NCBI RefSeq assembly: GCF_013177315.1
Contig: NZ_CP053661.1
Span: 5,146,001-5,210,000 of the forward strand
Direction: 5' to 3'
DNA: 64,000 bases
Source: Thermoleptolyngbya sichuanensis A183
GTDB taxonomy: Bacteria > Cyanobacteriota > Cyanobacteriia > Elainellales > Elainellaceae
Each line of letters starts with the position of its first letter. Position 1 is the first letter of the stretch. A model generated the notes under the pieces. It was given only the letters and a program-made list of their open reading frames with translations. It searched no databases and had not been told where the DNA came from. Positions 29,917 to 36,863 of the stretch are shown in pieces. The translations under genes were made by a program, and so were the position numbers.

Positions 29917-30772
29917 TCATTCTCCTGGATGACACGATTCAGTAACCACTGTTTATTCTGAAAACCTCACAAAAAATGCGCTGAATTAAAAACTCAGACG
30001 CAACCCCTCCGTGCAATCAGACTGCAATTTTCAGAATGAAATTCTGTAATTTTAATGACTGGTTTTTAATCAGACTTCAAGACTGGAAGCATGACTTAAA
30101 ACTTGGGACACAAACTCTAACAGCAACAAGGCAATCCACACAAACTACACAGTTCATAAACATTGCAAAGATAACGCTGTACAGGTAGTTTTGTACAGGT
30201 AGTTTGGATCGCCTCAATCCCTTGCTCAACCTGAAATTGTGCTGCGCCACTCCGAACAGCTTGGCAGCACCTAATCAGGACTGTACCGACCTTATATCCA
30301 CAAACGGACACCTTTCGATTGGGGACTTTCGATTGGCACCTTTCAACTAGCAGCTTGGCAACTAGCACTTTTAGCGTTTTGCAATGAGTCTAGTGCCCTA
30401 AAACTTACTGACAAACTTACTGACTCGCAACTCACCAAGCTTCAATTCGCATCCTACAAGCTTCTGAACTAGAACTGGCTCATCTTCAGGTTAATTTATG
30501 GATCGCTTATGAACGATGAAATTTTCCCCTCATAAGAATGACTCAATGTTCGTGATTACTCAGTTTGTGATTACTCAAATCATCAACCCAAACACAATCG
30601 CCAAGAAGCACTCACCCTCTAGCCTATAAAAACTCCAGGGGTTCCGGAAAGAATGTAAACATCTGGATGTATTTTGAAATATTTTTTGAAAAATTTGAAC
30701 ATATCTGGATTAAACAATATTTAGGAAGTCAGTCGAGGGCGATCGCCCAAAGCATACCCTAAACCCCCTAAC
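29917..30772. other. Gene-free region upstream of pntA1
   Basis: Between the pntA1 start and the left flank of the CRISPR locus no credible gene is found; the longest frame (30117-30368, minus) is Cys-rich and has no recognised content. A 14 bp tandem duplication of GTACAGGTAGTTTT is at 30179-30206, and degenerate ACTTTCGATTGG words lie near 30315-30350. The part after 30500 is AT-rich and may carry the pnt promoter or a CRISPR leader, but neither can be fixed. Confidence 0.4.
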
Positions 30773-30925
30773 CACCTGACACATCTCTGGGAACCCCCTA
30801 GTTTCTCCTAGAGGACGCTGACCCAAAACCCTTCAGCCAACCCCTCCAAACTCCAACCCAAAGACTACAAGCTTCAACCCCAAAACAACGCATTTCAAAG
30901 CTTTCAGAACTTTCGTCAGACAACC
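30773..30925. repeat. Left copy of a ~150 bp CRISPR-flanking element (degenerate)
   Basis: This stretch aligns end to end with 32633-32776, with many substitutions and a few gaps: both begin CCTGACACATCTCTG, share GGAACCCC/GAACCCCC, CCAACCCCTC, CGCATTT and end near GTCAG-CAACCA. The inverted terminal words are decayed here (CTGACACA and CGTCAGAC). Both copies point the same way, one on each side of the CRISPR array. A pyrimidine-rich tract of about 85 bases follows at 30925-31010. Confidence 0.65.
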
Positions 30926-31255
30926 AACCCCCTCCCCCCTCCCCCCTTCCCTCTTCTCTCTTCTCTCTTCCCTCTCCCCTCTTCCCTCTCCCCTCTTCCC
31001 CTTAACTTTTTCTTCCATTGACTTCTTTGGCGCAGGTCTTCTATCCTATACCCAGAGATAAGCCACCTCCACGATCTGTCCAAACCTTGAAAGCCGCATA
31101 ATTCCGTTGAATCGTGTCGATGCCTTATTCAGTAGGTACTTCAGGCGCTAGAGATTCAAGGTTTTAAGGGAGAAAAATCATTTTTGGGGTTCCAAAATGA
31201 TTACCGTCGATTTTCGCTTACGAGCCATTGCCAGGAGCGGGTTTCAGACAGCACT

Positions 31256-32540
31256 CTTTCAAACCCATTTCCCCGCAAGGGGACTGAACCCCAAATACCT
31301 AAAATGCCGCATCTCCGGCGGTTCAACTTTCAAACCCATTTCCCCGCAAGGGGACTGAAACTTCGTGGCGTGACGGGGCGCTACCGCTTCGTGAAGTCGC
31401 TTTCAAACCCATTTCCCCGCAAGGGGACTGAAACTTTGGGTGCAGTCAATCTGGACTGCCTCCGATGGGTTTGTCCGCTTTCAAACCCATTTCCCCGCAA
31501 GGGGACTGAAACAGATTACACACTTTGGTTTGCCTTCAAACGAAATTACCTTTCAAACCCATTTCCCCGCAAGGGGACTGAAACCTTGTGACATTGGCAA
31601 AGAGTCGGCAGATGAAGCCACTTTCAAACCCATTTCCCCGCAAGGGGACTGAAACCCGCCTGAGCTAGTATCAGGGGCAGCTTTTCGTCTAGACTTTCAA
31701 ACCCATTTCCCCGCAAGGGGACTGAAACCGGGAAATTAAAGATACAGAGGAGTATGGAAGCTACAAACTTTCAAACCCATTTCCCCGCAAGGGGACTGAA
31801 ACCTCCCTGTGCTGAGCAGAAGCGGGTGTTGTACTCTTTCAAACCCATTTCCCCGCAAGGGGACTGAAACGCGCCGAGCGTATGCAGACAGATACCGGTA
31901 TTCTTTCAAACCCATTTCCCCGCAAGGGGACTGAAACTTACGGTGATGGAACCTGTTATCCGGAATCCATTTGCCACTCTTTCAAACCCATTTCCCCGCA
32001 AGGGGACTGAAACTAGAGAGTTTCAAAATTTGGTTCTGGAGCTGGGCTCCAGCCTTTCAAACCCATTTCCCCGCAAGGGGACTGAAACCTCACTTAAAAC
32101 TACTTCAAACCGCAGTTCCTCCCACTTTCAAACCCATTTCCCCGCAAGGGGACTGAAACGACTTCATCCATCGTCAGCTTGCTCACTCCGCCATCCTCGA
32201 ACAGCTTTCAAACCCATTTCCCCGCAAGGGGACTGAAACGGGAGTTGGTGCGAGGATCTAAACCAATGATCTCGCCGTCTTTCAAACCCATTTCCCCGCA
32301 AGGGGACTGAAACAAACTGAACCCGCGCAGTTTGTGTTTCCACCAATCTGCCGCTTTCAAACCCATTTCCCCGCAAGGAGACTGAAACATCCCATCGGTC
32401 TGATTTCCCTCTACATCGGTGACATAGAGACTTTCAAACCCATTTCCCCGCAAGGGGACTGAAACAATGCAAGATCGGCTACCCCTGCGGCCGATCTTGC
32501 ATCAACTTTCAAACCCATTTCCCCGCAAGGGGACTGAAAC
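31256..32540 (+). CRISPR. CRISPR array, 18 repeats of 35 bp and 17 spacers, no cas genes nearby
   Basis: Repeats start at 31256, 31327, 31400, 31478, 31550, 31621, 31694, 31768, 31836, 31903, 31979, 32054, 32125, 32205, 32279, 32354, 32431 and 32506. The repeat opens CTTTCAAACCCATTT, continues with a CCCC stem, a GCAA (GNRA) tetraloop and a GGGG stem, and closes ACTGAAAC. Spacers are 32-45 bp. The eight bases after the stem match the 8-nt crRNA handle left by Cas6, so + strand transcription is favoured. Against this, the leftmost repeat is degenerate at its end (GAACC), which usually marks the leader-distal side. Repeat 16 has one G-to-A change. No cas gene lies in the 64 kb, so the machinery must be elsewhere. 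The type is not determined. Confidence 0.98.
32466..32505. repeat. Last CRISPR spacer is a perfect hairpin
   Basis: Spacer 17 contains ATGCAAGATCGGC (32467-32479) and its exact reverse complement GCCGATCTTGCAT (32490-32502) around a ten-base loop. No other spacer in the array looks like this. The word set resembles the inverted repeat at the prfA end (1805-1846). Confidence 0.85.
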
Positions 32541-32956
32541 GCTTGGGAAGGAACAAAAAGCGAAAAACGAAAAAACAACCTTACAGAGCTGATTTGCAAA
32601 GAAGCCTGACACCTGACTGCCTGATACTAAGCTGCCTGACACATCTCTGCGAACCCCCGATTTCTCGTAGAGAACGCTGGCCCAAAAGCTCCTTCGTCCA
32701 ACCCCTCTGGCTCCAATCCAGGGATTTCGACTCCAAGACAGCGCATTTTCGCGGCTTTTGGAACTTGTGTCAGGCAACCAGCTAAACCCCTCCTGAAAAC
32801 CTATTGTCCTAAGAAATAACGCGCCTCCTTTGCCAGGGCACTTTTTAGGAACTGGTTCGTCCACACTGCCTGATGCCCTGCATCCTGATGCCTCCGCCTC
32901 TGAATCCGAGAAGCGTAGTGTATCCTGAGAGGAGCATTAAACGGTAAAGTTTAGTG
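32541..32956. other. Right flank of the CRISPR array
   Basis: No gene. It starts with an A-rich purine stretch (32545-32575), then CCTGAC/TGCCTGA words (32604-32640), the intact flanking element (32633-32776) and further CTGCCTGATGCC/CATCCTGATGCC words near 32870-32890. The DUF2808 gene begins at about 32957. Confidence 0.5.
32633..32776. repeat. Right copy of the CRISPR-flanking element, with perfect terminal inverted repeats
   Basis: 144 bp bounded by TGCCTGACACA (32633-32643) and its exact reverse complement TGTGTCAGGCA (32766-32776). Inside, CCAAAAGC (32682-32689) pairs with GCTTTTGG (32753-32760), so the ends nest. There is no open frame long enough for a transposase. A non-autonomous mobile element (MITE) or a structured RNA gene would both fit. 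The copy at 30773-30925 is its degenerate relative. Confidence 0.7.
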
Positions 32957-36007: not shown

Positions 36008-36280
36008 AGGAGTCAGGAGTTGGAGTTTGAAGGGTTCATAGACTTGGGTAATTTGGGCAATTTGGGCAAATATTCCCGAAAGGGATGAATACGCGATGTG
36101 CGATTTTCCATCTGCCCTCATCCCCGAACCCTTCTCCCAAGTCGGGCTACTGTGTACGACAAAATCTTCTAGGCTTGAGCAGCGATGCTGTGATCCCCCC
36201 TTAACCCCCCTTGAACAAGGGGGGTAATCCCCCCTGCCCCCCTTAAACAAGGGGGGAACTGATCCCGGAGTGACCCAAAG
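36008..36280. other. Left part of the metal-transporter divergent region
   Basis: Contains the ATPase gene leader with a 9 bp unit (TTGGGYAAT/A) repeated three times at about 36043-36069, and from 36190 a G/C-tract block with CCCCCCTTAACCCCCC, TTGAACAAGGGGGG and similar inverted words, which resembles the intergenic CCCCCTT-AAGGGGG repeats common in cyanobacteria. No gene is supported. Confidence 0.45.
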
Positions 36281-36748
36281 CAGGGAGAACTGGCTCGGAA
36301 GTCCCCCTTATCAAGGGGGATTTAGGGGGATCTTTCGGAGCCTGACGCAAACCATCGAGAGGTCTACACACAGTAGCCTAAGCCGGGAGAAGCGAAGCAG
36401 GGAGAACTGGCTCGGAAGTCCCCCTTATCAAGGGGGATTTAGGGGGATCTTTCGGAGCCTGACGCAAACCATCGAAATGTGTGTACACGGTAGCCCAAGC
36501 CGGGAGAAGCGAAGCAGGGAGAACTGGCTCGGAAGTCCCCCTTATCAAGGGGGATTTAGGGGGATCTTTCGGAGCCTGACGCAAACCATCGAGAGGTCTA
36601 CACACAGTAGCCTAAGCCGGGAGAAGCGAAGCAGGGAGAACTGGCTCGGAAGTCCCCCTTATCAAGGGGGATTTAGGGGGATCTTTCGGAGCCTGACGCA
36701 AACCATCGAAATGTGTGTACACGGTAGCCCAAGCCGGGAGAAGGGGAG
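36281..36748. repeat. Four tandem 117 bp repeats, alternating A-B-A-B
   Basis: Units begin at 36281, 36398, 36515 and 36632, each 117 bp. Each holds an inverted CCCCCTT/AAGGGGG core and an outer GGCTCGGAAG/CTTTCGGAGCC pair. Two variants alternate: units 1 and 3 end GAGAGGTCTACACACAGT, units 2 and 4 end GAAATGTGTGTACACGGT, so the block arose by doubling a 234 bp pair. Because 117 is 39 codons, an open frame persists through it on both strands, but nothing in it looks like a protein. It lies between the divergent ATPase and substrate-binding genes. Confidence 0.92.
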
Positions 36749-36863
36749 CAAGAGAGGTTTGAAGTTCCTATCCGAGAGCGGGAAAGGGCTTGAAGCCCTC
36801 GGCACACCAGCAGGAAAAGGGTGAGGGAGAGCGGCAAAGTTGCACATCCCGTATTAGATACGA

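Follow-up and report, generated by a model that had tools for sequence, protein, structure and literature searches.

A satellite type III-D CRISPR array as cargo of a predicted MITE-bounded composite transposon in Thermoleptolyngbya sichuanensis A183

The genome of Thermoleptolyngbya sichuanensis A183, a hot-spring cyanobacterium, consists of a single contig (C1) of 5,525,100 bp, of which the 64,000-nucleotide stretch C1:5146001-5210000 was analyzed (this whole stretch being the window; positions without a C1 prefix are window coordinates). In an intergenic region next to pntA, the window holds a CRISPR array that is bracketed on both sides by copies of the same MITE, and the following features could be delineated at this locus:

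30759..30767, + strand: left target-site duplication (TSD) CTAAACCCC, identical to 32782-32790 and at the exact expected position
30768..30927, + strand: left MITE copy, 160 bp, decayed, with outer end CTAACCACCTGACACA; 74% identical to the family consensus
30972..31255, + strand: CRISPR leader, homologous to the leaders of the arrays at C1:4327377 (74% across 285 bp) and at C1:3679561 (82% across 171 bp)
31256..32540, + strand: CRISPR array of 18 repeats of 35 nt (CTTTCAAACCCATTTCCCCGCAAGGGGACTGAAAC) and 17 spacers of 32-45 nt
32541..32571, + strand: array trailer, resembling those of the two other arrays
32613..32628, + strand: additional sequence of terminal-repeat type, CTGACTGCCTGATACT, which directly adjoins the right copy and matches the MITE end at 14/16 positions
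32628..32781, + strand: right MITE copy, 154 bp, with its outer end TGTGTCAGGCAACCAG intact; 83% identical to the consensus
32782..32790, + strand: right TSD CTAAACCCC, identical to the left one

The interval between the two MITE copies is made up of a pyrimidine tract, the leader, the 18 repeats with their 17 spacers, and the trailer, and no cas genes were recognized beside the array when the ORFs of the window were judged by reading. One internal repeat carries a G>A change, and the leader-proximal (first) repeat ends in ACTGAACC instead of ACTGAAAC. Since the leader-proximal repeat is normally the one that is copied when new spacers are added, this altered end suggests that spacer acquisition at the window array has probably stopped. 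Within the array, spacer 17 (window 32466-32505) contains a perfect 13-bp inverted repeat (ATGCAAGATCGGC / GCCGATCTTGCAT), and elsewhere in the window (36270-36824) an ORF of near-identical repeats (SRENWLGSPPYQGGFRGIFRSLTQTIE) looks like a translated intergenic tandem repeat.

Two other arrays are present in the genome, i.e., one of ~52 repeats at 4.327-4.331 Mb and one of 103 repeats at 3.672-3.680 Mb. The 103-repeat array adjoins Cas1, Cas2, Cas10, Csx19, Csm3- and Csx10-like proteins, a CARF protein and a WYL regulator, which marks this locus as type III-D. Compared with this array beside the III-D cas genes (C1:3.672-3.680 Mb), the window array has a leader that is 82% identical over 171 bp and a related 35-nt repeat, and by this common repeat and leader it qualifies as a satellite type III-D array. 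Just beyond the 103-repeat array, at C1:3671353-3671794, the trailer end of that array is itself repeated with a 191-bp spacing. In the passages of the A183 genome paper covered here, three arrays (35-bp repeats), one III-D cas locus and many IS elements are described, and MITEs are not mentioned (PMC8461337).

The original prediction, made from the window alone, held that the stretches left and right of the array are related over their whole length and in the same orientation, and indeed both copies proved to be 72% identical, with a local alignment score of 116 vs. a maximum of 27 in 1000 shuffles. The perfect 11-bp inverted ends foreseen for the right copy are present (32633-32643 / 32766-32776), and the left copy is decayed as described (74% to the consensus). 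The limits first drawn for both flanking stretches were too narrow, and they were widened to 30768-30927 and 32628-32781 by means of the CTGACTGCCTGACACA...TGTGTCAGGCAACCAG ends of intact copies. When folded and compared with dinucleotide shuffles, the right and left copies scored z -4.8 and z -3.0, respectively, and the consensus forms a near full-length hairpin (z -7.3), because the element is an imperfect palindrome. Further copies, a significant alignment and structure above that of shuffles were all found, i.e., the opposite of the three outcomes that had been named beforehand as speaking against the prediction.

With the right copy as query, a genome search matched 32 places, and genome searches revealed ~30 copies, full or partial, of the element across the 5,525,100 bp (copy counts that come from similarity searches). 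Alignment of the copies placed the ends at CTGACTGCCTGACACA and TGTGTCAGGCAACCAG, yielding an element of 161 bp with 16-bp terminal inverted repeats and no transposase gene within it. A proposed check for TSDs revealed exact 9-bp duplications (9/9) at 18 single copies, and 8/9 identity between the flanks of one older copy; two 83-bp relatives have 9/9 flanks too. The diverged copies L024 and L028 retain 9/9 or 8/9 TSDs, and some other copies are devoid of an own TSD (e.g., C1:2193224 and C1:3466220). The proposed search for relatives in other cyanobacteria was likewise positive, with exact 9-bp flanks (9/9) there as well, and a plasmid of Leptolyngbya sp. BL0902 carries a copy that is 89% identical to the consensus and has exact 9-bp flanks. 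At four places (C1:2276033, C1:1727237, C1:4640522, and C1:1045092), the first 105 bp of the MITE is followed directly, at the same junction, by an IS or by another MITE; the outer flanks differ among these four junctions, as if the compound end itself had spread.

The genome also contains six identical intact copies of a 1315-bp IS of which the 16-bp end CTGACTGCCTGACACA is identical to that of the MITE. This IS encodes a 395-aa protein with a match to the DDE transposase family DDE_Tnp_1 (PF01609; E 6.6e-9, above the cut-off). Its match to the NCBIfam model transpos_IS4_2 (E 2.1e-33, 116 bits) is below the curated cut-off of 152, as are all of its matches to NCBIfam IS4-family models, and the PDB contains no sequence relative of it, i.e., there is no detectable match to any solved transposase. 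The partner IS resembles IS4-family IS elements and their MITEs (with Tn5/IS50-like ends) in its CTGA... ends, 9-bp TSD and ~395-aa DDE transposase, but sets itself apart by these sub-threshold model matches and the absence of a match to solved transposases. The first 19 bp of its end (CTGACTGCCTGACACAAGT) presumably resemble the Tn5 outside end. This IS4-family-like transposase could act in trans on the MITEs. Since its copies are dispersed and bear exact TSDs of 9 bp, and since an autonomous IS shares its ends, the flanking element is a MITE, in line with the non-autonomous mobile element that had originally been proposed.

The outer flanks of the MITE pair itself are identical at 9/9 positions (CTAAACCCC), exactly at the TSD position, and on the + strand of the window CTAAACCCC occurs at these two places only. 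Between the two flanking intergenic stretches, identical 9-mers were found at 4 of 138,252 position pairs, corresponding to a chance of 2.9e-5. Moreover, when each copy was compared with its own flanks, 4/9 positions agreed for the left copy and 1/9 or 2/9 for the right copy, meaning that neither has its own TSD. The inner flank of the left copy is a C-rich tract in which, shifted inward by four bases from the expected position, CTAAACCCC is matched at 7/9 (7/9 being reached at 39 of 1280 positions in the null for such a shifted match), and given this match the left copy might conceivably have a damaged TSD of its own. The outer 9/9 match and the lack of own TSDs together form the pattern expected when the entire package is inserted once, with the features of a composite transposon, i.e., two copies of a mobile element bracketing a cargo, one outer TSD, and none for the single copies. 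This TSD across the pair also supports the earlier suggestion that the flanking element may show how the array was brought in.

The locus would then be a MITE-bounded composite transposon with a satellite type III-D array, by now decayed, that was inserted as a unit, a reading to which we assign a probability of roughly 0.6. Specifically, the composite transposon would span 2014 bp (30768-32781), with two copies of the 161-bp-type MITE in direct orientation at its ends and, as cargo, a satellite array of type III-D that has its own leader and trailer but no cas genes. A transposase resembling the IS4 family, which an IS with these same ends provided in trans, would have brought together the outer ends of the left and right copies and inserted the unit into the intergenic region beside pntA, where the 9-bp target CTAAACCCC would have been duplicated. 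The III-D Cas proteins, encoded ~1.5 Mb away, would subsequently read the array. We infer that a single transposition event made the MITE-array-MITE unit, that its transposase was that of the 1315-bp IS or a close relative, and that the III-D Cas proteins use the window array.

The identities of both copies to each other (72%) and to the consensus, which is young (74% and 83%), suggest that the event is old, or that an old subfamily was used. At the left outer end, 3 of 16 positions are mismatched, because of which the MITE-array-MITE unit is probably no longer mobile, and no second location of the unit was seen. Both copies share states that were not seen in the other aligned copies (AGAG and AACCCC), and the tree does not resolve them as sisters. 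With regard to the consensus, the changes in the left copy are strongly one-sided (20 G>A vs. 2 C>T; 5 vs. 7 in the right copy); other old MITE copies are also unlike the left copy in this G>A bias, and the + strand around the left copy is G-poor.

A first alternative is that a single MITE initially resided at the site with TSD CTAAACCCC, and that a circle with a MITE and the array (which may have been a plasmid, or may have been excised from between two MITE copies in direct orientation) was integrated by homologous recombination between both MITEs. The same outer TSD and inner flanks would be expected, and the array would still be MITE-borne cargo, with recombination as the last step. Recombination between family members is in fact frequent in this genome, since several IS copies share TSDs with distant copies. 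More specifically, exact 9-bp TSDs are common to IS/MITE ends located 0.4-2.7 Mb apart, with one reciprocal pair (C1:1455897-1456364 and C1:3771248-3772562, at 1.456 and 3.772 Mb) and further sharing ends at 1727237/4391989, 1730460/2561275, 2102033/3592663, and 2562589/3002200, as if recombination between copies had caused large chromosome inversions or translocations. IS copies in this genome have exchanged flanks by recombination, so that transposition is not the sole way in which copies can be joined, and the MITE copy on the BL0902 plasmid (89% to the consensus) is in favor of a circular donor as well. Nevertheless, this route requires that a circular intermediate existed and that two events took place rather than a single one, and just ~155-160 bp of homology would have been available, and we consider it possible but rather unlikely. 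Composite transposition by an IS transposase acting in trans is the simplest account, and under transposition or circle recombination alike the array is MITE-bounded and arrived as a package.

A second alternative, which we deem improbable, is that two MITEs were inserted independently beside a pre-existing array, with a coincidental outer 9-bp identity and decayed own TSDs. In its favor, the two copies are both old and have diverged, the family has other members that lack an own TSD, and the C-rich inner flank of the left copy allows the shifted 7/9 match. However, the outer match is 9/9 and at the exact position (chance ~3e-5), and the diverged copies L024 and L028 have kept their 9/9 or 8/9 TSDs. 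Moreover, the probability that two randomly placed MITE copies would lie on either side of any of the three arrays, each at no more than 100 bp, is ~1e-6, although this rough estimate ignores insertion bias. Finally, and also in favor of the composite transposon, the array is missing from the syntenic place in the same-genus MAG J069 (G001, RFIF01000597), where both neighboring genes lie on one contig (81-83% identity) with no array and no MITE between them. J069 was the sole find when GTDB contigs were scanned for the flanking gene; its alignment breaks off between window 30683 and 32911, the intergenic region having diverged so far that an exact empty site CTAAACCCC cannot be made out, and the absence of the array could also stem from loss.

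Lastly, it is very improbable that the flanking copies serve the array as a leader element or as a structured RNA gene, as the original prediction had also entertained: although the consensus hairpin (z -7.3) and the better-than-shuffle folding of both copies would fit such a role, the family is dispersed over ~30 scattered sites, most of them without an array, an Rfam search with the flanking element gave no match, an RNA gene is not needed for a hairpin that follows from the imperfect palindrome, the TSDs and the ends common with the IS already largely refute this option, and the true leader (30972-31255) lies inside the MITE pair and is common to the two other arrays of the genome, from which the MITE is absent.

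Beyond this genome, related arrays on plasmids were found on Nostoc plasmids only (~67% identity), with no MITE association established, and no phage match to the spacer region was obtained. Near the MITE loci of other genomes, no CRISPR-like spaced repeats were present within the short flanks covered.

MITE composites with integrons or resistance genes are known (PMC3934969, PMC13367494, PMC4133298; review PMC10969869). In Acinetobacter, class 1 integrons are bounded by a 439-bp MITE, for which both transposition and recombination were proposed by the author, and as in the window locus the same MITE is situated at both ends of a cassette array with outer target repeats (PMC3934969). The Acinetobacter elements nevertheless differ by their integron cargo with resistance genes, 5-bp TSD and other MITE family, as opposed to the CRISPR array, 9-bp TSD and IS4-type ends here. 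TIME-COMPs, in turn, are composites of Tn3-derived miniature elements (PMC13367494, PMC4133298); they differ in belonging to the Tn3 family and in carrying resistance genes and other DNA as cargo, and their mobility was shown, whereas it is deduced from sequence in the present case. In the open-licence literature, no MITE composite with a CRISPR array as cargo was found, but only ones with resistance-gene or integron cargo.

The outer TSD across the MITE pair would provide a physical record of the arrival of one array, and constitutes a signature for which the surroundings of further orphan arrays can be screened. Such orphan CRISPR arrays are common, while it has seldom been shown how they arrive far from cas genes. 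Whether MITE-bounded composite transposons can more generally carry cas-less arrays is in our estimation an evenly balanced matter; in that case, an unrelated transposase acting in trans would move or copy ready-made immune memory inside a genome or from one genome to another, where the resident Cas proteins would read it. If this were general, transposition could spread immune memory without the cas operons, much like resistance cassettes spread via MITE-bounded integrons.
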